Shown here in pieces: positions 539 to 34,333 of a DNA stretch of 37,275 nt. A program made the translations under genes and the position numbers. The notes beneath the pieces were generated by a model. That model saw only the letters and a list, made by a program, of their open reading frames with translations. It was not told where the DNA came from and made no database searches. Positions within the stretch are counted from its first letter, which is position 1, and each line of letters opens with the position of its first letter. Source of the stretch: a virus; the IMG/VR virus record IMGVR_UViG_3300035698_002169, positions 1 to 37,275 of that record; one strand, given 5' to 3'.

Positions 539-3208
539 ATGAACGCTAAAGAATTAAAGATATTATCAAAGCAAAGGGCAGATGAGGCGGTTGGGTTTTT
601 CAACACTCTGAGCCACACAAAAGGAATATGGAAGGGTGTAAAGTTTGAATTACTACCCTGGCAGGAAGAAATCATCCGAGACATATTCGGCACCTTGAAA
701 AAAGACGGTTATAGACAGTACAATACCGCCTATATTGAAGTTCCAAAGAAGAACGGTAAGGCGCTTGCGCTAGATACTATGATCCCAACGCCTAGCGGAT
801 GGTCAACAATGGGCGAGTTAAAAGTTGGAGACATAATATTTGACGAAACAGGAAACCAGTGTGATGTAATTGGCGTTACAGATGTAATGGAAAACAGACC
901 ATGTTATGAAATGGAATTTTCAGACGGAAATAAAATTATTGCAGATGCTAACCACGAGTGGAAAACACTTTGCTATAAAACAGGGAGAAAAAACGGAAAG
1001 CGTTTTCATAATGAAGATTATTTACACACAACGGAGAATATATATAAAACACTAGAAGCGGACAGACCTTATGATATTAAAAAAGGATTAATTTGTAAAA
1101 ATCACAGGATTGAAGTTGCAGATAAATTGTACATTGAAAATAAAAAATTAGAAATACACCCTTATGTATTAGGGGTATGGCTCGGAGATGGATGTAGTGC
1201 AAATGCATCAGTTACATGTGCCTATGATGATATTCAAATAATTGAAGAACTAAAAAAGACTGGACTTACAATTAGAGAATGGAAATCATCAGGCGTTAGT
1301 ACTGGACAGTTTGCATTTGGCGATGGTAATAGGAGTATTACTAAGGAAGAAAGAGAAAACGTGCCACACGCAATCTTTAGAAAAATGGGATTGCTAAATA
1401 ATAAACACATTCCAAAAGATTATTTGCGAGCATCTATAAGCCAAAGAACAGAATTATTACAGGGACTAATGGACACAGATGGTTATGTTTCCAAGGCAGG
1501 GCAGTGCGAGTTTACATCAACTTCAAGACCATTAGCTGATGGAGTCTTAGAGTTATTGCATACACTTGGACTTAAATCAAGGATTAGTGTTAGCAGGGCA
1601 ATGCTTTATGGAAAGGATTGTGGAAAAAAATACCGAATACAGTTTTGGGCGTATAAAGATTATCCAGTCTTTAAGTTGAGCCGGAAAACAGCACGACAAA
1701 AGCAAACCCCTAAGAAAAGAACAAGAAGTGGATATATACAAATTAACAACGTTACCCCAATACAATCAGTTCCGGTTAAATGTATACAAGTAGATTCTCC
1801 TTCTAATTTATACTTGGTAGGGGAGTCAATGATTCCAACTCACAACTCAGAAATAGGAGCTGGAATAGGTTTAAAGCTCTTATGTGCAGACGGTGAAAAG
1901 CAAGCACAGGTTTATGGATGCGGTGCTGACAGAGCGCAGGCGAGTTTAATTTATGATGTTGCAGTTGACATGGTAGAACAGAATCCGGCATTAAAAAGAA
2001 ACATTAAAATTATTGCCTCAAAGCACCGGCTGGTTTACCTTCCGAACAAAAGTTTTTACCAAGTATGTTCCGCTGAGGCTTACACTAAAGATGGACTTGA
2101 TGCTTCCGGGGTTATATTTGATGAAATACACGCACAGCCTAACCGAGAATTTTACGATGTTATGACAATGGGATCAGGTGATGCGAGAATGCAGCCACTA
2201 ACTTTCATTATGACAACCGCTGGAGATGATCCAGATGAGGTTTCAATCGGTTGGGAAGTACATCAAGAGGCGCTTGGAGTGTTAAATGGCACCCTAAACA
2301 TCCCCAATATGTACGCGAAAGTGTACGCTTTACCAGAGGGAGCAGACTGGGAAGATGAAAAAGAGTGGTTGAAATGGAATCCAAGTATAGGTCATCATTT
2401 AAGAATAGAAACATTTAGGAACGCGTACCTAAAAGCAAAAGTGAATCCTGTAATAGAACGTAAGTTCAAACAGCTAAGATTAAATCAGTGGACTAAAACA
2501 AAATACACATCATGGGTTGGACTTAACATTTGGGATGATAACACCGGAGCAATATTGTTAGATAAATTAAAAGGTCGGAAGTGTTACGGTGGACTTGACC
2601 TCTCAAGTAAATTAGACTTAACAGCATTCGCATTAATATTCCCACCGGATGACAATAACACGACATATGACATACTAATGTACTATTGGATTCCAGAAGA
2701 TGGCATGAATGAGCGCTCCAAAAGGGACAATGTACCCTATAAAAAGTGGGTTGACCAAGGATTAATAATGACCACACCGGGAAATGTTATAGATTATAGG
2801 TTCATTCAAAAGACAATTATTGATTTAAGAGATGAATATAACATCTTAGCAATAGGATTTGATCCCTGGAACGCACAACAAACAGCCACAGAGCTTGAAG
2901 ATATGGGATTGACAATGATAGAAATCAGACAGGGTTACAAATCAATGTCCCCACCGATGAAAGAATTGGAAGCGTTTTTAATAGGTCGGAGAATGAAGCA
3001 TGGTGGCAACCCAGTATTGAGATGGAACTTTAGTAACTTGCAAGTGAAGCAAGATGAGAATGCAAATATAAGACCGGCAAAGAATGCCGGGAAGAAAGCG
3101 GCAAAGATTGACGGAGTGGTCGCAGTAATAAATTCATTAGCTCCATTGATTAGAAATATTGAAGATGAAGATTCAGTTTATGAAACTCGTGGAGTTTTGA
3201 GCGTATAG
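539..3208 (+). CDS. terL: Terminase large subunit (ATPase/nuclease) precursor containing an intein
   Basis: Motor that pumps DNA into the prohead and cuts it. The 889-residue reading frame is a 527-residue terminase interrupted by an intein at residues 75-436. Joining the flanks restores the Walker A loop PKKNGKS (residues 69-74 plus S437). Walker B with the catalytic glutamate is VIFDE (525-529). The nuclease domain starts with GGLDLSSKLDLTA (D687) and continues with IGFDPWNAQQ and KIDGVVAVIN, which carry further acidic residues. This is the HK97/phiC31-like terminase family, and the spliced length is normal. The start codon has only a weak ribosome binding site and lies one base after the small-subunit stop, so translational coupling is likely. 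Without splicing the ATPase loop would be destroyed, so packaging should depend on the intein. Confidence 0.96.
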   Translation: MNAKELKILSKQRADEAVGFFNTLSHTKGIWKGVKFELLPWQEEIIRDIFGTLKKDGYRQYNTAYIEVPKKNGKALALDTMIPTPSGWSTMGELKVGDIIFDETGNQCDVIGVTDVMENRPCYEMEFSDGNKIIADANHEWKTLCYKTGRKNGKRFHNEDYLHTTENIYKTLEADRPYDIKKGLICKNHRIEVADKLYIENKKLEIHPYVLGVWLGDGCSANASVTCAYDDIQIIEELKKTGLTIREWKSSGVSTGQFAFGDGNRSITKEERENVPHAIFRKMGLLNNKHIPKDYLRASISQRTELLQGLMDTDGYVSKAGQCEFTSTSRPLADGVLELLHTLGLKSRISVSRAMLYGKDCGKKYRIQFWAYKDYPVFKLSRKTARQKQTPKKRTRSGYIQINNVTPIQSVPVKCIQVDSPSNLYLVGESMIPTHNSEIGAGIGLKLLCADGEKQAQVYGCGADRAQASLIYDVAVDMVEQNPALKRNIKIIASKHRLVYLPNKSFYQVCSAEAYTKDGLDASGVIFDEIHAQPNREFYDVMTMGSGDARMQPLTFIMTTAGDDPDEVSIGWEVHQEALGVLNGTLNIPNMYAKVYALPEGADWEDEKEWLKWNPSIGHHLRIETFRNAYLKAKVNPVIERKFKQLRLNQWTKTKYTSWVGLNIWDDNTGAILLDKLKGRKCYGGLDLSSKLDLTAFALIFPPDDNNTTYDILMYYWIPEDGMNERSKRDNVPYKKWVDQGLIMTTPGNVIDYRFIQKTIIDLRDEYNILAIGFDPWNAQQTATELEDMGLTMIEIRQGYKSMSPPMKELEAFLIGRRMKHGGNPVLRWNFSNLQVKQDENANIRPAKNAGKKAAKIDGVVAVINSLAPLIRNIEDEDSVYETRGVLSV
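761..1846 (+). mobile_element. Class 3-type intein with LAGLIDADG homing endonuclease, in the Walker A loop of the large terminase
   Basis: A 362-residue in-frame insertion between K74 and S437 of the terminase. Splicing signs are ALALDTMIPTPSGW at the N-terminus, NHEW (H139, W141) in block B, VKCIQV (C415) in block F, and IPTHN followed by S at the C-terminus. Position 1 is Ala, not Cys or Ser. W at B:12, C at F:4 and T at G:5 (W141, C415, T434) together form the WCT triad that defines class 3 inteins, in which the block F cysteine starts splicing. The central part is a DOD homing endonuclease with two dodecapeptides, LGVWLGDG (211-218) and LLQGLMDTDG (306-315), both with their acidic residue, so it is probably active or recently active. 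Borders are inferred from the restored PKKNGKS. Confidence 0.93.
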
Positions 3209-4460: not shown

Positions 4461-5135
4461 ATGAAGAAACAGGAAAGAAAACGCGATAGACAAGAACGAG
4501 TTTTTGGGGCAGAAATTAGAGAAGTTAATCCTGAAAAAAGGTCGCTTGCGTTGTCATTTTCTTCTGATACTCCTTACCGAGGATGGTGGGGAACAGAAAT
4601 TCTATCTCATGAAGAGGGCGATGTCAGCTTCAAAAGATTAGAAGATGTCGGAACGGTGTTATTCAATCATGGCAGTGATCCAAATTATGGCAAGATGCCG
4701 ATTGCTAGGATTGATAAGGCGTGGATTGACAAAGAAGAAGGAAAAGGCAGAGCCGAAGTAACTTTTGATGATGATGATGACAGTGCAAAAGTATTTGACA
4801 AGATTTCAAAAGGAATGCTTAAAGGTGTATCTGTGGGTTATGTAGTCCATCAATGGGAAGATGTAATGCCAGGCAAGAAATCATCAGATGGTAAATGGGA
4901 AGGCGCAGCTTCAATTGCAAGAGATTGGGAGCCTATAGAAATTTCAATCGTTGCTACCCCGGCTGATCCTGAAGTAGGAGTCGGTAGAGAATCAGAGATT
5001 ATAACCACAGAGGAACCAGAAGTTATAGAAGAAGAAACCGTAGTAACGGTTGAGGAGTCCAAACCTGAGGAAGATTCGGCAAGGACAAATAAAAGTGAGT
5101 TCCTTTGGAATTTGCGAAAAAAGATCAACACATAG
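4461..5135 (+). CDS. Prohead protease, HK97 type (peptidase family S78)
   Basis: 224 residues. Processes the capsid protein during prohead maturation. The family motifs are present: VLFNHG (catalytic H70), LKGVSVGYVV (nucleophile S124) and the downstream WEPIEISIVATPADP segment that closes the protease domain. The C-terminal part from about residue 180 is acidic and low in complexity (EEPEVIEEETVVTVEE), possibly a scaffold-like tail. The ATG lies 3 bases after the portal stop and the GAAGGGTGG of the portal end acts as ribosome binding site. The substrate gene (capsid) follows directly. Confidence 0.93.
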   Translation: MKKQERKRDRQERVFGAEIREVNPEKRSLALSFSSDTPYRGWWGTEILSHEEGDVSFKRLEDVGTVLFNHGSDPNYGKMPIARIDKAWIDKEEGKGRAEVTFDDDDDSAKVFDKISKGMLKGVSVGYVVHQWEDVMPGKKSSDGKWEGAASIARDWEPIEISIVATPADPEVGVGRESEIITTEEPEVIEEETVVTVEESKPEEDSARTNKSEFLWNLRKKINT

Positions 5136-14678: not shown

Positions 14679-15494
14679 ATGGGAACACTTATAAACTTAA
14701 TTGGTCATACTTTCGGTAAATTAAAAGTAATAAAAAGAGTTTCTAATAATTCTTACAATAAGCCACGTTGGTTATGTTTGTGTGACTGTGGAAATACTTG
14801 TATTGTTTCTGGAAATGGTTTAAGAATTGGACATACAAAATCGTGTGGTTGTTTACATAAAGAAACTGTTAGTAAAAAACTTACTAAAAATTTAAAAAAT
14901 AAACGTTTTGGTAGATTAGTTGTATTGAGAAGATCGGGCAGTAGTGAAGATTGGCGAGCTTTGTGGTTGTGTAAATGTGATTGCGGAAATGAAATAATAA
15001 CAAAAGGCAAATACTTACTTTGTGGCGACACGAAATCGTGTGGTTGCTTAAATTCAGATAACACTATTGCTAGAAATGTAGCCAATAAAATTAAGAGAAC
15101 TATAAAAATTTGTCCTGTATGCGGAATTGAGTTTGAAGTTATACCATCAACAGATAAAATACATTGTTCAATACAATGTGCTGGAGTGTCAAAAAGAGGG
15201 CTTTCGCCAGATTCTTCTTGGAGAGATGGATATGAATATTTAAATTGGAAAGTTTTGGTCTATGAAAAAGATAATTATGTCTGTGGTTTGTGCGGGAAAC
15301 ATCAAAGAATTATGCATGCTCACCATATGAAATCTGCTTGTTCTTATCCAGAATATAAATATAACGCAGATAACGGGATTGTTCTTTGCGAGGAATGCCA
15401 TAAATTCATACATTCAAAATTTGGGTTTACGGGCGATAGCACTAAATATATTTTAAAAAACAAGTTTGAGAAAGGATATACAAATGTCGTATAG
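14679..15494 (+). CDS. Free-standing HNH homing endonuclease with duplicated zinc-binding repeats
   Basis: 271 residues. Two repeats, about residues 4-59 and 74-123, share the layout FG.L.V..R ... W.C.CDCGN ... G.TKSCGC, a DNA-binding zinc module found in phage HNH enzymes. A third Cys cluster CPVC...HCSIQC is at 145-167. The HNH core is C202..C205, AHH (214-216), N232, C237..C240 H241 and H245, all metal-binding or catalytic positions present. The gene begins immediately after the stop of the tail-tip gene and its end overlaps the next tail gene by 11 bases. Base use is visibly richer in T than neighbouring structural genes. It is probably a selfish mobile gene rather than a virion component. 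Confidence 0.9.
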   Translation: MGTLINLIGHTFGKLKVIKRVSNNSYNKPRWLCLCDCGNTCIVSGNGLRIGHTKSCGCLHKETVSKKLTKNLKNKRFGRLVVLRRSGSSEDWRALWLCKCDCGNEIITKGKYLLCGDTKSCGCLNSDNTIARNVANKIKRTIKICPVCGIEFEVIPSTDKIHCSIQCAGVSKRGLSPDSSWRDGYEYLNWKVLVYEKDNYVCGLCGKHQRIMHAHHMKSACSYPEYKYNADNGIVLCEECHKFIHSKFGFTGDSTKYILKNKFEKGYTNVV

Positions 15495-20964: not shown

Positions 20965-22071
20965 ATGTATAACACCACAATGTACAATGGAGCAGTATAT
21001 AATGATGTAGGTAGAACAAGATTAATCTTTAGTGAAATACCTATAGTTACTACTAAGGGCGTGATTGCCAATAGTGTTTTAGTGCGCTCCCCTGTTGCAT
21101 CATATACATCAACAATAACCCCAGCACCAGCGGCAGGAGATTTGATAAAAAGATTTGTTGAAATTGCCGAGGGCGATGCTACGGTATGCGAAGAAATAGC
21201 CGATGCTTTGCTTGCTAAATGGAGCGTTGAACAAAAATCTGTAACGGGCAAAATAGCAATGAATGTTACCTTGCCATTAAAACAATATGTATATGTGGTT
21301 ATTCCTTGGGCATCAATTGACCAAAATATGCTCTTACAAAAAAAGGTTCACAGAATCACAGATAAAGAACTATCAACAACAGTAACACTCGGAGATATAT
21401 TAGTAAGCGATACGGAGTTAATTGCCAGAATTTTAGACGAATGGATTAATAAAGAAAAGAACAGACACTTCGGAGATAATACAGACTATACCGAGTATGA
21501 CAAAGATGGACATCAGACAATGGTTGGAAGTGCCAGACCTTGGCGAGATGAATTACATGATGCAATCAACATTGAAAAACAGGGTGTTACAATTACTGTT
21601 GATGAAGTTGAGGGCGTTGTTGATATAACCACATCATCAGATGAAGATGATTATTTGTTTTTGAATGTTCAGTTAAACCATGATCGAGATTTTGCATCAA
21701 TTATACATCCTCATATACATTGGTTTTCTGACGATGAGGCAAATGTGCCAAATTTCATGCTCAAATACAGATGGCAAATTGACGGAGGAACAAAAGTAAC
21801 TGATTGGACAGATTACAAATGTAACACTCCGGCATTTGATGCTCCGGCTTCAGGGGTAACAATACATCAAATATGTGATGGGGCAGGAATATCACCCCCA
21901 GCAGGAACAGCTTTATCAGATATAGTACAATTTAGAATAATAAGAGATAATGCAGATGACAGCCAGTTATTTGGCAAAGCTGATCCATTTACAGGAACAG
22001 TTGGAATATTAGCGTTTGATTTGCATTTCCAGATTAATAGTCTTGGATCTGATGATGAGTATACAAAATAG
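20965..22071 (+). CDS. Tail-tip protein with hub C-terminal-like half and a fibre beta-sandwich
   Basis: 368 residues, binding site GTGAGAGG. Begins MYNTTMYNGAVYND, a pattern seen at the start of several phage fibre proteins. Residues about 30-150 (LIKRFVEIAEGDATVCEEIA, DALLAKWSVEQKSVTGKIAM, KKVHRITDKELSTTVTLGDI) look like the second half of a siphophage tail hub: the AEEIADALLAKW-type helix, the strand, the basic VHRITD segment and the final 'LGD'. Residues 180-368 are a second domain with GHQTMVGSARPWRDEL and IHPHIHW, known from phage structural proteins. It may complete the hub started in the protein at 15484. Confidence 0.7.
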   Translation: MYNTTMYNGAVYNDVGRTRLIFSEIPIVTTKGVIANSVLVRSPVASYTSTITPAPAAGDLIKRFVEIAEGDATVCEEIADALLAKWSVEQKSVTGKIAMNVTLPLKQYVYVVIPWASIDQNMLLQKKVHRITDKELSTTVTLGDILVSDTELIARILDEWINKEKNRHFGDNTDYTEYDKDGHQTMVGSARPWRDELHDAINIEKQGVTITVDEVEGVVDITTSSDEDDYLFLNVQLNHDRDFASIIHPHIHWFSDDEANVPNFMLKYRWQIDGGTKVTDWTDYKCNTPAFDAPASGVTIHQICDGAGISPPAGTALSDIVQFRIIRDNADDSQLFGKADPFTGTVGILAFDLHFQINSLGSDDEYTK

Positions 22072-22086
22072 AAAGGGCATAAGGCA

Positions 22087-22335
22087 ATGAAGCTAGACTT
22101 TACAACGATGCACAAGAAAATGTTAGAAGAAACAGAAGACCGAAGCAAAGAAAATACAAAAGCAATCGGAGAACTTGAAAAAGCAGACATCAAAATTGAG
22201 GATATTGTTGGTCATGTTTGCGGCAAAGTTGACGGATTGACAAGAGTTCTTTGGTGGCTTGGCACTGCGATATTCTCAGTTTTAATTATTGCAATACTCG
22301 GTTATGTTCTTAACTTGGTAGGATTAGGAGTTTAA
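22087..22335 (+). CDS. XhlA-like lysis-associated membrane protein
   Basis: 82 residues. A charged, coiled-coil N-terminal part (HKKMLEETEDRSKENTKAIG) is followed by one transmembrane helix near the C-terminus (WWLGTAIFSVLIIAILGYVL). This is the layout of haemolysin XhlA family proteins, which work with holins in Gram-positive phages. Ribosome binding site is weak (AAAGGGCATAAGG). It opens the host-exit block, with the subtilase, holin and endolysin following. Confidence 0.8.
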   Translation: MKLDFTTMHKKMLEETEDRSKENTKAIGELEKADIKIEDIVGHVCGKVDGLTRVLWWLGTAIFSVLIIAILGYVLNLVGLGV

Positions 22336-22336
22336 T

Positions 22337-23563
22337 ATGAAAATATCAAAAAGTTCAAATGCTTCAATAATGGATATTGAGGTGGAAGATGTTACAAAAA
22401 GCGAAGCAGAAATAGAAAAAGTAAAAGCTCAGTATGTTGGTAATAACTGGATTGCTAAGCTATGGGATTATGAAGACTTATTCACCCATATTACAACAGG
22501 TGTTTATGATATGGCGAGGGAAAATTCAAAAGGTAAAAATATAATCGTTGCAGTAATTGACACAGGGGTTGATAGTAGACATAAAATGCTAGATGGCAAA
22601 GTAATTTCTCACCATGATTTTGTTCCGAGTGATGATGTGTTAGCAGTTGATGACAATGGACATGGCACTCATGTTTCAAGTTTAATTGTGGGAAAGGGTA
22701 TAGGTGCTGAGGATGCACGTATTCGCTCATTCAAGGTTTTAAACGCAGAGGGGAATGGAAATCTATCTGATATTGCGGATGCCTTAGAATACATCATAGA
22801 AAGTTTAAAGATTATACCGAACTATGTTGATATAGTAAATATGAGTTTAGGAATCAAAGCAATTGCTAAGGTTTTAGATCGTGTTAATTTTGAGAGAATG
22901 CACAACGCAATTAAAGAACTCACTTATTTAGATATTCCGGTGATAGTTGCATCAGGCAATACAGGCATGATTGAATATATGTACCCGGCTAGTTTTCCAG
23001 AAGTAATATCAGTTGGCGCGACTTCATGGAGAAGATACCGGCAATTATTTTCTACTATAAATGATGAGATAGATTTAATGCAATGTGGCTCGAGAGTTTT
23101 CGGAGCTTTACCAAATAGCAGATATGCTAAAATGTCAGGGACTTCAATGGCTTGTCCGATGATAACAAAAATTGCAGTTATGTTATTAGGCAAACATAAA
23201 AAGTTATTTAATAGACCGATGACTGAAAGAGAATTATGGACTGTGTTAAAAATGAATACGGTCGATATGGGAGCGGTCGGTGTTGATATAGTTTATGGAG
23301 TGGGATTCTGCTCACTGAAACCAGCATACGGTCAGATGTCAATTCATTACAGACCTAATGGAACTGTTGAAATAAGAGAAAACTGGGTGGGTTATCAATT
23401 CCCAATTCCATACGTAAAGCCTCACATAAATTCAGATGATCATTTTGTGCTGGGTGTAAGAGATGATTTTGAATTTCAAGGGAATATTGGTTTTTGGGTA
23501 GGCGGAGATGAAGCAAAGGATGAGGAAGGAAATCCTGATCCTCAGGCGATAATAATAATTTAA
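22337..23563 (+). CDS. Subtilisin-like serine protease (S8 family)
   Basis: 408 residues with the full subtilase set: VAVIDTGVD (D75), DDNGHGTHVSS (H109), the oxyanion ASGNTG (N208) and MSGTSMACP (S270). Spacing is normal for the family. Residues 1-65 precede the catalytic core and could be a short prodomain or docking part; there is no signal peptide. Residues 325-408 form a C-terminal beta-like domain (YRPNGTVEIRENWVGYQFPI, VLGVRDDFEFQGNIGFWVGG) of unknown role. It starts one base after the XhlA-like stop (GGATTAGGAG binding site) and precedes the holin. Possible jobs are cleaving host surface proteins at exit or entry, or maturing a tail protein. All are inferred. Confidence 0.93.
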   Translation: MKISKSSNASIMDIEVEDVTKSEAEIEKVKAQYVGNNWIAKLWDYEDLFTHITTGVYDMARENSKGKNIIVAVIDTGVDSRHKMLDGKVISHHDFVPSDDVLAVDDNGHGTHVSSLIVGKGIGAEDARIRSFKVLNAEGNGNLSDIADALEYIIESLKIIPNYVDIVNMSLGIKAIAKVLDRVNFERMHNAIKELTYLDIPVIVASGNTGMIEYMYPASFPEVISVGATSWRRYRQLFSTINDEIDLMQCGSRVFGALPNSRYAKMSGTSMACPMITKIAVMLLGKHKKLFNRPMTERELWTVLKMNTVDMGAVGVDIVYGVGFCSLKPAYGQMSIHYRPNGTVEIRENWVGYQFPIPYVKPHINSDDHFVLGVRDDFEFQGNIGFWVGGDEAKDEEGNPDPQAIIII

Positions 23564-23574
23564 GGAGAAGAATT

Positions 23575-23772
23575 ATGGAACAGAACAGATTTAGAAGTTT
23601 GCCATTATGGGCGGCAATAGTAGCACAGGTTATACTAATATGTCAGTTGACAGGTGCGTTTAAAGCAATAGGTATTGATGCTGGACTTGTTGGCGATATA
23701 GCCGCAGGAGTATTACAGCTATTTGTATTGTTTGGAATCCTTAATAATCCTGTTAATAAAACTGGATTTTAA
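23575..23772 (+). CDS. Holin
   Basis: 65 residues, two hydrophobic segments (LPLWAAIVAQVILICQLTGA and AAGVLQLFVLFGI) and a C-terminal GILNNPVNKTGF that resembles the GI..DPT.KG ending of small Gram-positive phage holins (PF04531-like). It should form the membrane lesion that releases the endolysin. Binding site TTAAGGAGAAG. The endolysin begins 2 bases after the stop. Confidence 0.88.
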   Translation: MEQNRFRSLPLWAAIVAQVILICQLTGAFKAIGIDAGLVGDIAAGVLQLFVLFGILNNPVNKTGF

Positions 23773-23774
23773 CA

Positions 23775-24386
23775 ATGAATGGATTAGTAGCATACGCAAA
23801 AGCCTTGCTACAAATTTATGGGCAAGGCAAATATGGTTATGTATACGGAGCGCAGGGCGAGGTTATAACAGAGGAAGTTCTTATAGATCTAAAAAACAGA
23901 TATGGTTCTGTTGCTCCTGGTTCAAATTACTACGATTCAGCGCGAGTTAGAAAATGGATTGGATCACAGGCAGCTGATTGTAGTGGATTGATTATGTATT
24001 TCATGCAAAAACTTGATATATATACTCATGATAAAACCGCTAATGATATAATGAGGGATGGATTTTCTTCAGTTCCATTAGCCGGGAATCTTGCTTTTAA
24101 GGTCAAAAATGGCAGAGCGTATCATGTTGGTATCTGTATTGATGCTTCAACTGTAGTACATGCAAGGGGTACAGATTACGGAGTTGTTTCAACAGGTGAT
24201 GAATATGCTTGGGATGAATACCGAAAACCTAATTTTGAGATTCCATATGTTCATTGGGCAGAACCGTATTATCAATTTTTATGTGATAGGGGAATCAATT
24301 ACAGCGATAAGAAATTTGACAAACCAATTACAAGAGGAGAATATTTTGCTGCAAGGGCAAAAGAGGAGATGAAAAATGTCAAATAA
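23775..24386 (+). CDS. Endolysin, NlpC/P60-type cysteine peptidase with SLH-like C-terminus
   Basis: 203 residues. Catalytic set of the NlpC/P60 (CHAP-like) fold: QAADCSGL (C69), AYHVGIC (H117) and VVHARG (third polar residue H129). This fold cuts the peptide part of peptidoglycan. The N-terminal segment GKYGYVYGAQGEV is common in phage enzymes of the type. The last 36 residues contain LCDRGINYSDKKFDKPITRG (169-188), matching the S-layer homology pattern 'L...GI.....F.PITR.E', a probable cell-wall anchor. No strong ribosome binding site; coupling to the holin 2 bases upstream is likely. Confidence 0.88.
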   Translation: MNGLVAYAKALLQIYGQGKYGYVYGAQGEVITEEVLIDLKNRYGSVAPGSNYYDSARVRKWIGSQAADCSGLIMYFMQKLDIYTHDKTANDIMRDGFSSVPLAGNLAFKVKNGRAYHVGICIDASTVVHARGTDYGVVSTGDEYAWDEYRKPNFEIPYVHWAEPYYQFLCDRGINYSDKKFDKPITRGEYFAARAKEEMKNVK

Positions 24387-24690: not shown

Positions 24691-24718
24691 AGCAGGTGTA
24701 AAAGCCTGCTTTTCTCTT
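24691..24718 (+). terminator. Second terminator-like hairpin
   Basis: AGCAGG (24691-24696) / CCTGCT (24705-24710), loop of 8 bases, then TTTTCTCTT. It lies just upstream of the early promoter, insulating it from late transcription. Confidence 0.65.
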
Positions 24719-31536: not shown

Positions 31537-31649
31537 GTTGGAAAACAAAATCATGGATTGTAATGTTAATATTAATGGCTCTGTTCTTTTTAGGCGGACT
31601 ATGGATGGGATATAAACTGGGAGTAAGTACAAACTGGATAATAATGTGA
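31533..31649 (+). CDS. Small membrane protein
   Basis: 38 residues, AAGGAGATACT upstream and ATGA overlap. Mostly one hydrophobic helix (WIVMLILMALFFLGGLWMGY). Pairs with the preceding membrane peptide. Function unknown. Confidence 0.58.
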   Translation: MSWKTKSWIVMLILMALFFLGGLWMGYKLGVSTNWIIM

Positions 31650-31660
31650 GGAGGCGAAAT

Positions 31661-32401
31661 ATGAAAAAGGTAGCAATAATTGGATTTGCAGCATCAAAAG
31701 ATGATGCGCCATTTAAAGACAAATCATATGAGATTTGGGGACTAAATGATTTATTTGGAAAAATACCAAGGTGGGATAGATGGTTTAATATACATGATAT
31801 TGAAGTGATTAAAAATACAGGTATATTAAGATCTAATATTCAGTCATTTGAAATGTATAAGACAATGACCTGCCCGGTATATTTACAAGAGATATGCAAA
31901 GAGATACCGACATCAGTAAAATTTCCGTTAGCTGAAATACAAGCGAAATTCTGCAACGGTGAAAAGGGATATTTCACAAATCAAATATCATATATGGTAG
32001 CACTTGCATTATATGAGGACTTTGATGTTATTGAACTATATGGGGTTGATATGTCAATGGATACTGAATATCAAATACAAAGACCATCTGTTGAATACTG
32101 GATAGGATTAGCTCGAGGCATGGGCAAAATAGTTAAAGTTTCACCGGGTTCAACGCTCCTAAGTTTGCTTTATTTGTATGGATATGAAGAAGAAAAAATG
32201 TCAAAGTTTGTGGAAATATTCAAGGCAAAGCTGAGATTCTTAGAAGAGCAGAAAGAAAAAACAATAGCATCCATTAACGGATTTGAATCTGAGATTGAAA
32301 AACTACAGGAAAACATTGCAAATAATAAAATTGCACTCAATCAATTTATCGGAGCAAGTAGCCTAACTGGGAATATTTTAAAGGAGTTCAAGAATGTCTA
32401 A
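31661..32401 (+). CDS. Rossmann-fold phage protein (DUF115/GT42-like layout) with C-terminal coiled coil
   Basis: 246 residues from the ATG at 31661 (GAGGAGGCG; a GTG at 31646 in frame lies inside the preceding gene). The N-terminus KKVAIIGFAASKDDAPFKDK is a nucleotide-binding-type strand-loop, followed by YEIWGLNDLFGKIPRWDRWF and ELYGVDMSMDTEYQIQRPSV, a pattern I know from uncharacterised proteins of many phages and that recalls the MptE/DUF115 and sialyltransferase-like folds. The last 60 residues are a coiled coil. Substrate unknown. It overlaps the next gene, a nucleotide-sugar-type enzyme, by 8 bases. Confidence 0.65.
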   Translation: MKKVAIIGFAASKDDAPFKDKSYEIWGLNDLFGKIPRWDRWFNIHDIEVIKNTGILRSNIQSFEMYKTMTCPVYLQEICKEIPTSVKFPLAEIQAKFCNGEKGYFTNQISYMVALALYEDFDVIELYGVDMSMDTEYQIQRPSVEYWIGLARGMGKIVKVSPGSTLLSLLYLYGYEEEKMSKFVEIFKAKLRFLEEQKEKTIASINGFESEIEKLQENIANNKIALNQFIGASSLTGNILKEFKNV

Positions 32402-33122
32402 GATAGGAACAATTATACAAACAAGAATGGGATCAACTAGATTGCCGGGCAAAGTAATGAAAATTATAGAAGGCAAAACAGTATTAGCTCATGTTATTGA
32501 AAGAGTAAAATTATCTGAAATGCTGGATAAAATTATAATAGCCACCACAACAAGATCGAGGGATGATGTTATTGAGGATGAGGCTTTAAAAAATGGGGTG
32601 TTGGTTTCAAGGGGCAGTGAAAATGATGTGCTTGGTAGATATTATCATGCAGCGGTAGAAAATGACTTGGATGTAATTGTGCGAATAACCTCAGATTGCC
32701 CACTTATTGATCCAAATATTGTTGATAATTTAATTGGGTGGTATATTGAATATGAAGGTGATGTTGTCGGAACTGCAGGAATTTGGAAAAGTACATACCC
32801 GGCAGGCTTAGACTTATCGGTGGTGTCATTTAAAAAACTGGAAGAGGCATATTTTAGGGCAACTAAAGAATATCAGCGTGAACACGTTATGCCTTATATT
32901 TATGAGAACAGTAAAAAAATATCTATCATTAAAAACCCAGTTGACTATTCAAATCAGAGATGGACAATTGACACCGAAGAGGACTTAGAACTGATTGAAG
33001 CTATTTATTTCAGATTATACAAAGGTAAGCATGACTTCTTTTTAAAAGAGATTATTGATCTCATGAACCGAGAGCCAGAACTATATAAAATAAATGCGCA
33101 TATTGTACAGAAGGAGCGATAG
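32394..33122 (+). CDS. SpsF-like cytidylyltransferase (nucleotide-sugar synthesis)
   Basis: 242 residues. QTRMGSTRLPGKVM (9-22) is the nucleotide-binding signature of CMP-sugar synthetases (acylneuraminate cytidylyltransferase family), followed by IATTTRSRDDVI, RITSDCPLIDP near residue 97 and the C-terminal RWTIDTEEDLELI motif typical of SpsF from spore coat polysaccharide synthesis. It should activate a sugar acid or similar as a CMP derivative. Unusual in a phage early region. The binding site AAGGAG lies in the preceding gene. Confidence 0.9.
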   Translation: MSKIGTIIQTRMGSTRLPGKVMKIIEGKTVLAHVIERVKLSEMLDKIIIATTTRSRDDVIEDEALKNGVLVSRGSENDVLGRYYHAAVENDLDVIVRITSDCPLIDPNIVDNLIGWYIEYEGDVVGTAGIWKSTYPAGLDLSVVSFKKLEEAYFRATKEYQREHVMPYIYENSKKISIIKNPVDYSNQRWTIDTEEDLELIEAIYFRLYKGKHDFFLKEIIDLMNREPELYKINAHIVQKER

Positions 33123-33454
33123 TGAATAAATATAAAAATAAAGAAACATTTATTGATAATATAAGATTTCAGAGTAAAGCGGAAGGGCAGAGATATAAAG
33201 ATCTAAAATTGTTATTAAAAGCCGGGGTTATATCTCAATTAGAACTACAACCAGAGTTTGTACTATTGGAACCATTTACTCATAGAAATAAAAAGTACAG
33301 AGGAATCAAATATAAAGCAGACTTTAGATACAAAGAGAACGGAAAAACGATTGTGGAGGATGTCAAGGGTTATATGGGAGTTGGAGTTTACAAGATTAAG
33401 AAAAAGCTATTGCTAAATAAATATAGAGATATTGATTTCAGGGAGATAAAATAA
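33122..33454 (+). CDS. DUF1064 nuclease-like protein
   Basis: 110 residues with a GTG start (AAGGAGCG upstream), whose G is the last base of the previous TAG. FQSKAEGQRYKDLKLLLKAG, LQPEFVLLEPF, YKADFRY and VEDVKG form the DUF1064 pattern: E, D and D-x-K residues of a PD-(D/E)XK-type nuclease fold. Members occur where phages usually carry RusA-type resolvases, so a branched-DNA nuclease role is plausible. Confidence 0.88.
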   Translation: MNKYKNKETFIDNIRFQSKAEGQRYKDLKLLLKAGVISQLELQPEFVLLEPFTHRNKKYRGIKYKADFRYKENGKTIVEDVKGYMGVGVYKIKKKLLLNKYRDIDFREIK

Positions 33455-34333
33455 TGAAAATAGGTTTGATTGATGCAGATGGTCATAACTTCCCAAATCT
33501 GCCACTTATGAAATTATCTGCTCACCACAAGCAATTGGGCGATAGCGTTGAATGGTGTGTGCCTTTACTCAAATATGACAGGGTATATGTTTCTAAAGTA
33601 TTTGACTTCACTCCTGATTTTAACACATATGTTGATACCAAAGAACTCATAAGAGGCGGTACAGGCTATGATCTTAAAAACGCATTACCGCAAGAAATTG
33701 AAACAATATTTCCTGACTATGAATTATATCCACAATATCAAGGTAAGGCATACGGTTTTCTAACAAGAGGCTGTCCAAATGATTGTCCGTTCTGCATAGT
33801 TACACCAAAAGAAGGCGGGCAAGTAATTAAAGTTGCTGATGTAACAGATTTCTGGACGGACCAAAAAGGAAATTATATTATTAGATGCAAATATGACAGC
33901 TTACAAAGATGCGCTGGAATTATGCGATCAGATTATTGAAACGAAAGCACAGATCACATTCAATCAGGGATTGGATATTAGGTTTATGACAGAGGACTTT
34001 GCAAATAAAATTAAGCAGATGAAAATTAAGATGTTGCATTTTGCATGGGACTTGCCAAAAAATGAAAGCATCATTATTAAAAATTTAAAGATATTTAGAA
34101 AATATTGGGATCTCAGCGACAGAGATTTAAGGGTATATGTTCTGACCAATTGGAACACCGACATTGAATATGATTTGTTTAGAATATATAAATTAAAAGA
34201 ATTAGGTTATGATCCCTATGTGATGATATTTGACAAACATAAAGCGCCAAAGCAAATCAAGCGGTTGCAACGGTGGGTAAATAATAAATTTATATTTAGA
34301 TCATGCGAAAGATTTGAAGATTACAAGGCATAA
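33454..34333 (+). pseudogene. Radical SAM protein, reading frame broken by one inserted base
   Basis: The first frame (33454-33939) encodes MKIGLIDADGHNFPNLPLMK and the cluster-binding RGCPNDCPFC (C107, C111, C114; CxxxCxxC). The homologous continuation is in the +1 frame: upstream of the ATG at 33893 this frame reads KEIILLDANMTAYKDALELC, exactly the kind of sequence expected after DFWTDQK, and runs to 34333 (YDPYVMIFDKHKAPKQ, WVNNKFIFRSCERFEDYK). One extra base in CCAAAAAGGAAA (33861-33872) explains it. Either a sequencing slip, a real mutation or rare frameshifting. The intact protein would be about 292 residues, a phage radical SAM family of unknown substrate. Confidence 0.82.

Follow-up and report, generated by a model that had tools for sequence, protein, structure and literature searches.

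Many endolysins of phages that infect Gram-positive bacteria combine a catalytic domain with a binding module and lack a signal peptide. The standard holin-endolysin-spanin scheme of lysis does not cover the passage of a protein S-layer at exit. Lysis of Bacillus cereus by the SLH endolysin LysBT1 required EDTA, a dependence for which its authors blamed the S-layer; they regarded the SLH domain as absent from earlier known endolysins (PMC12285257). Among cultured phages, gp42 of the Brevibacillus phage Jimmer1 has been listed as subtilisin-like (PMC4168068); it is labelled "hypothetical protein" in its GenBank record and is located downstream of the lysis genes. Here, we analyzed a stretch of viral DNA of 37,275 nucleotides (IMG/VR record IMGVR_UViG_3300035698_002169, hereafter the window), in which a subtilase gene is embedded in the lysis block. 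We propose, with a probability of roughly 0.6, that its product is an envelope protease of the lysis cassette, which is released through the holin in the manner of an endolysin and cuts surface proteins at exit.

Active site and C-terminal region of the subtilase

The subtilase gene (22337..23563, plus strand) starts with ATG and encodes a protein of 408 residues. Residues 66-323 match the Pfam family Peptidase_S8 (E=8.3e-37, 127.5 bits, with the cut-off at 21.8), and the protein also matches PHROG_3677, labelled "protease" (8.9e-52), as well as 161 distinct PDB sequences, with the intracellular subtilisin 7y6m as the top match (1.7e-32). Foldseek matches were subtilisins. The Asp-His-Ser triad and the oxyanion Asn are situated in canonical motifs, with D75 in VIDTGVD, H109 in NGHGTHV, N208 in ASGNTG, and S270 in SGTSMACP, exactly at the positions given in the original prediction. 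The four residues are invariant in an alignment of 19 sequences, and the catalytic residues are conserved across the lysis-linked subtilases as well. The protein is thus a member of the S8 family with a complete active site. A scan of the N-terminus revealed no hydrophobic segment or signal peptide, as the original prediction had claimed.

Beyond the catalytic domain, the protein carries a C-terminal extension (residues about 327-408; 23315..23560, plus strand), which occupies the position of the stalk (PF07833), SLH, or SH3b module in relatives. A stalk domain appeared plausible by eye in the alignment but did not stand up to comparison with shuffled sequence, and we do not assign one here. 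Pfam gave no PF07833 match in this region, and with a stalk-only family model the window C-terminus scored in the middle of the range of its shuffles. With the full-length family models, shuffling of the residues from 332 on gave scores at least as high as that of the window C-terminus in 40 and 86 of 1000 cases, while shuffling from residue 327 on looks better only through the end of the catalytic domain. The AF2 prediction (19 sequences) placed strands and one helix in a stalk-compatible order, with a low-confidence pLDDT of about 50. The window protein therefore falls outside the stalk-bearing lysis subtilases, having no detectable PF07833 although its relatives have one.

Organization of the lysis block

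The lysis block is directly preceded by a tail/fibre-region protein that has no family match (20965..22071), and all features of the block described here lie on the plus strand, as does this upstream gene. The first gene encodes an XhlA-like protein of 82 residues with a C-terminal transmembrane helix (22087..22335; Pfam XhlA, 15.5 bits, below the cut-off of 34.7), which is followed by the subtilase, a holin-like protein of 65 residues with two hydrophobic segments (23575..23772; Phage_holin_1, 14.6 bits, below the cut-off of 22), and an NlpC/P60 endolysin of 203 residues (23775..24386). The Pfam match of the endolysin is firm (8.3e-08, 32.6 bits), and a homologue is encoded 3' of the subtilase in locus L016. 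A terminator-like stem-loop with a T run (24691..24710) marks the end of the late block. The gap between the XhlA-like stop codon and the subtilase ATG is 1 bp, with AGGAG upstream of the ATG; 11 bp separate the subtilase stop codon from the holin-like ATG, and 2 bp the holin-like stop codon from the endolysin ATG. This spacing is operon-like. The layout agrees with the predicted position of the subtilase between an XhlA-like and a holin gene; the identities of these two neighbors are tentative, being weak in Pfam, yet their size, membrane segments, and gene place fit. The endolysin had also been credited with an SLH-like tail, which we did not recover: a Pfam SLH search of the window endolysin was empty even at E<=3, and SLH domains were seen in relatives only. 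Comparison of the window subtilase with the window endolysin found no C-terminal similarity.

The window also bears on the alternative that the subtilase is a head-maturation protease, which the original prediction had named, or a late cytoplasmic protease with a processing function on phage or host proteins. That an S8 enzyme can serve near the head genes is indicated by four loci (L033, L049, L075, and L087), in which a subtilase lies between the terminase/portal and capsid genes, and the cytoplasmic variant fits the lack of a signal peptide, as in intracellular subtilisins. However, a separate head-maturation protease of the HK97/U35 type is already encoded between portal and capsid (4461..5135, plus strand; PHROG_4523, 8.9e-42; PHROG_80, 1.5e-13), and the subtilase, starting at 22337, lies outside that interval and inside the lysis block, at a distance of some 17 kb from the head genes, and the head-position subtilases fall into another clade. 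The presence of a head protease of its own in the window weakens the head-maturation alternative, and we consider this pair of explanations improbable in comparison with an envelope protease acting at exit.

Several further features were observed elsewhere in the window. In the terminase large subunit (539-3208), an insert that keeps the reading frame and contains a LAGLIDADG homing endonuclease (LAGLIDADG_3, 3.3e-10) separates the beginning of the ATPase domain from the remainder; it is apparently an intein, located close to Walker A. An ORF between two tail genes (14679-15494) has no Pfam match and by eye resembles an HNH endonuclease, possibly a homing one. A cytidylyltransferase (32394-33122; CTP_transf_3, 1.6e-31), possibly a nucleotide enzyme for surface sugars, adjoins a protein of 251 residues (31646-32401). 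Two overlapping ORFs (33454-33939 and 33893-34333), neither of which matches Pfam, look by eye like the two parts of a single protein of the radical-SAM type, divided by a change of reading frame that could reflect a sequence error, decay, or frameshifting.

Placement of related subtilases in other phages

Viral relatives were gathered by alignment-based scans, and analysis of their gene neighborhoods revealed that the placement of the subtilase in a holin/endolysin operon recurs in divergent phages. Holins adjoin or flank the subtilase in the orders tail genes, subtilase, Phage_holin_4_1, and NlpC (L016); holin, subtilase, and M23+SLH endolysin (L237 and L240); holin, subtilase, and Amidase_2 (L249); and Amidase_2, a 93-residue protein, subtilase, and holin (L293). 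Holin-like genes occur in the orders fibre, XhlA-like, subtilase, Amidase_3, and holin-like (L176) and holin-like, subtilase, and Amidase_3 (L245). Subtilases beside holins, for which the original prediction had suggested a search, are present in other phages. In the remaining loci, the order is fibre, subtilase, XhlA-like, Amidase_3, and a papain-like protease (L022); XhlA, subtilase, a small TM protein, and GH25 (L242); subtilase, a small TM protein, and glucosaminidase+SLH (L238); and subtilase followed by a stalk-bearing Amidase_3 (L243) or by an M23+SLH-kind endolysin as in L237 and L240 (L239). The endolysin is an Amidase_2 at the L294 subtilase locus and an Amidase_2 with three SLH repeats at that of L247. 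Altogether, seven endolysin chemistries were seen beside lysis-cassette subtilases, with several of the holin and XhlA assignments in these relatives being weak. In two loci, reverse transcriptases (RVT_1; L022:435-1817 and L237:5967-7268) precede the subtilase by a few genes and possibly belong to diversity-generating retroelements acting on fibre genes.

The same neighborhoods give rise to the main rival explanation, that of a tail- or virion-associated protease, which would cut host surface proteins from the tail tip at entry or process tail proteins, with its module binding the host surface. In many members, the subtilase gene is closely 3' of the tail-fibre block. It lies at the fibre end in L017, where two large probable virion genes come next and lysis genes with a cell-wall hydrolase follow about 7 kb on, and also in L177, where a cell-wall hydrolase follows about 3.5 kb on; in L023 a subtilase gene directly precedes the tape measure gene. 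Foldseek, moreover, found subtilase-like matches within phage baseplate and tail-fibre proteins. Nevertheless, the immediate neighbors in most members of the clade are holin and endolysin genes, the C-terminal modules are common to subtilases and endolysins, and the window subtilase has no recognizable virion-attachment domain. We therefore regard a role in the tail as unlikely, though it is the strongest competitor of a protease acting at lysis.

Putative envelope-binding modules of subtilases and their neighbors

Most lysis-linked subtilases end in a C-terminal module. The stalk PF07833 (cut-off 24.2 bits) scored 62.1 bits in L176, 60.6 in L242, 33.6 in L249, and 32.5 in L240; it was also above the Pfam cut-off on the L017 subtilase and below it in L022 and L016. 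The L303 subtilase carries SLH (56.9 bits), and the SH3b-like region of the L256 subtilase aligns to the SH3b of the neighboring endolysin at 7e-12. In L243, the subtilase and the adjacent endolysin have the stalk domain in common, and the L294 endolysin probably carries a stalk, to judge from a score of 20.3 bits. A second protease type is found in the lysis block of the stalk-bearing subtilase of L022, namely a papain-family cysteine protease (C1; L022:6326-7324) with a C-terminal stalk of 51.9 bits. A related endolysin was present within 4 kb of 15/17 stalk-bearing subtilases versus 7/192 other viral subtilases, a contrast inflated by endolysin references that were partly drawn from the same loci; when each locus's own reference was left out, the link persisted only for loci whose endolysin type recurs at a second locus. 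The reading of the original prediction as a protease acting at lysis and exit thus gains strong comparative backing, with related subtilases in the lysis cassettes of many divergent phages and often with stalk, SLH, or SH3b modules of the endolysin type.

Late release and the envelope-binding modules of the relatives would equally suit a receptor-destroying or superinfection role, in which the freed protease strips receptors from debris and neighboring cells and limits re-adsorption of the progeny. No feature specific to receptors was found, however, and the gene neighborhood predicted is that of the lysis model; we give this role a low probability, and a contribution to lysis itself is preferred.

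A further set of subtilases, from large phages (L025, L026, L041, L054, L061, and L066), has C-terminal hydrophobic segments, which in several cases are preceded by a proline-rich linker; some of the genes adjoin a terminase-like gene. These are probably a membrane-anchored variant.

Phylogeny and distribution

In a tree of 68 sequences built from the catalytic domains, the smallest starred set that contains the window comprises 11 rows with support of 98/99, all of them from phages and without a cellular member. The set consists of the window, L016, L176, L256, L177, L017, L240, L237, L239, L022, and L245, with the place of L256 being unsure owing to its long branch; the ten loci other than the window come from divergent phages, and their subtilases all lie in the lysis region or at the end of the tail genes. 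Bacterial intracellular subtilisins (ISPs), head-position phage subtilases, and large Bacillus phage enzymes fall outside, so that the window subtilase groups within the all-phage set and not with the bacterial ISPs. Other lysis-linked subtilases branch elsewhere (L238/L243/L244, L293/L294, L242, L249, L303, and L247), and these separate branches point to repeated entry; judged from the sequences, subtilases appear to have entered lysis cassettes several times, with some of the deeper forks of the tree poorly supported. Five loci (L033, L043, L049, L075, and L087) form a separate subtilase clade located upstream of the capsid gene and after terminase/portal, where the subtilase apparently replaces the usual prohead protease.

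Recent capture of a host gene was considered and rejected: the cellular matches in a contig scan were mainly ISPs of Bacillaceae, with identities of at most 36%, and lie outside the clade. In 835 genomes related to three Firmicutes loci, no clade member was detected at 1e-46, an empty result that is weakly informative, and the one ISP-like match was not inside a prophage. A recently acquired housekeeping protease that is not conserved in related phages, which had been put forward as evidence against the original prediction, was accordingly not what we saw, given the low cellular identity and the conserved placement.

Subtilases had been called rare in phages. Of 50,697 phage records, 44 matched the window subtilase in tblastn, but in IMG/VR at least 487 loci were confirmed. 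A single-sequence scan of 2.9 million IMG/VR viral contigs found no relative of the window subtilase or of the window capsid, and since neither search returned anything close, the window phage is divergent. The annotated phage subtilases that we examined were situated among early, replication, nucleotide-metabolism, or unassigned genes, and none of the annotated named-phage records inspected had a subtilase inside a lysis operon. With a stalk-bearing family member as the query, no annotated phage record matched at 80% coverage.

Proposed role in virion release

In the mechanism that we propose, the subtilase, which lacks a signal peptide, would be a late product made in the cytoplasm alongside the XhlA-like, holin-like, and NlpC/P60 proteins. 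Upon opening of the membrane by the holin, it would exit together with the endolysin and reach the cell wall, where it would cut S-layer or other wall-bound proteins, helping the disrupted envelope to fall apart and the virions to detach. In relatives, the C-terminal stalk, SLH, or SH3b module would keep the protease on the wall. S-layer proteins are likely candidates for the natural substrate where the endolysin or the protease bears SLH (L237, L238, L240, L247, and L303). A broader version, which we advance tentatively and hold at somewhat less than even odds, concerns Gram-positive and probably S-layered hosts at large: a holin-released, wall-anchored protease would dismantle the protein layer while the endolysin cuts peptidoglycan, and such proteases, with modules common to endolysins, would have been recruited repeatedly, S8 enzymes several times and the papain-type C1 at least once. 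A conserved and repeatedly recruited lysis-cassette protease with endolysin modules would be a directly testable candidate for S-layer passage, and such proteases may aid endolysins on S-layered bacteria.

Comparison with known systems

The enzyme family has long been known. In the open literature, with subscription papers mostly outside the scope of the search, we found no description of recurrent lysis-cassette subtilases with endolysin-type modules, and as far as that literature shows, this placement is undescribed. The closest solved sequences and folds are the Bacillus ISPs (PDB 7y6m and 2xrm; TM-score of 0.85 by target length), which likewise lack a signal peptide and have the same catalytic motifs. 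The window subtilase differs from them in its clade, in an extra C-terminal region, and in being encoded in a phage lysis cassette; it and all lysis-linked members also lack the LIPY/F-type N-terminal motif, which the same pattern detected in some Bacillus ISPs. PHROG_3677, which includes the subtilase of the Methanofastidiosa virus vir520, is a homology group in common with the window protein (8.9e-52), but the annotated phage subtilases examined are not beside a holin and an endolysin as in the window. Among cultured phages, the nearest counterpart is Jimmer1 gp42 (L308:6235-7377), a subtilase of a Brevibacillus laterosporus phage encoded about 1.4 kb downstream of a glucosaminidase gene, which differs in lying outside the lysis operon, in its distant sequence, and in having no stalk, and which is possibly a lysogenic-conversion gene. 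The head-position subtilases (L033, L049, L075, and L087) are S8 phage proteases too, but constitute a separate clade in the interval from terminase/portal to capsid. Modular endolysins, including LysBT1 (PMC12285257), offer the closest parallel in architecture, being late proteins with no signal peptide that join a catalytic domain to a C-terminal envelope-binding module, and SLH, SH3b, and stalk modules are found both on them and on the relatives of the window subtilase; the difference lies in the catalytic domain, which in the subtilase targets protein and not peptidoglycan.
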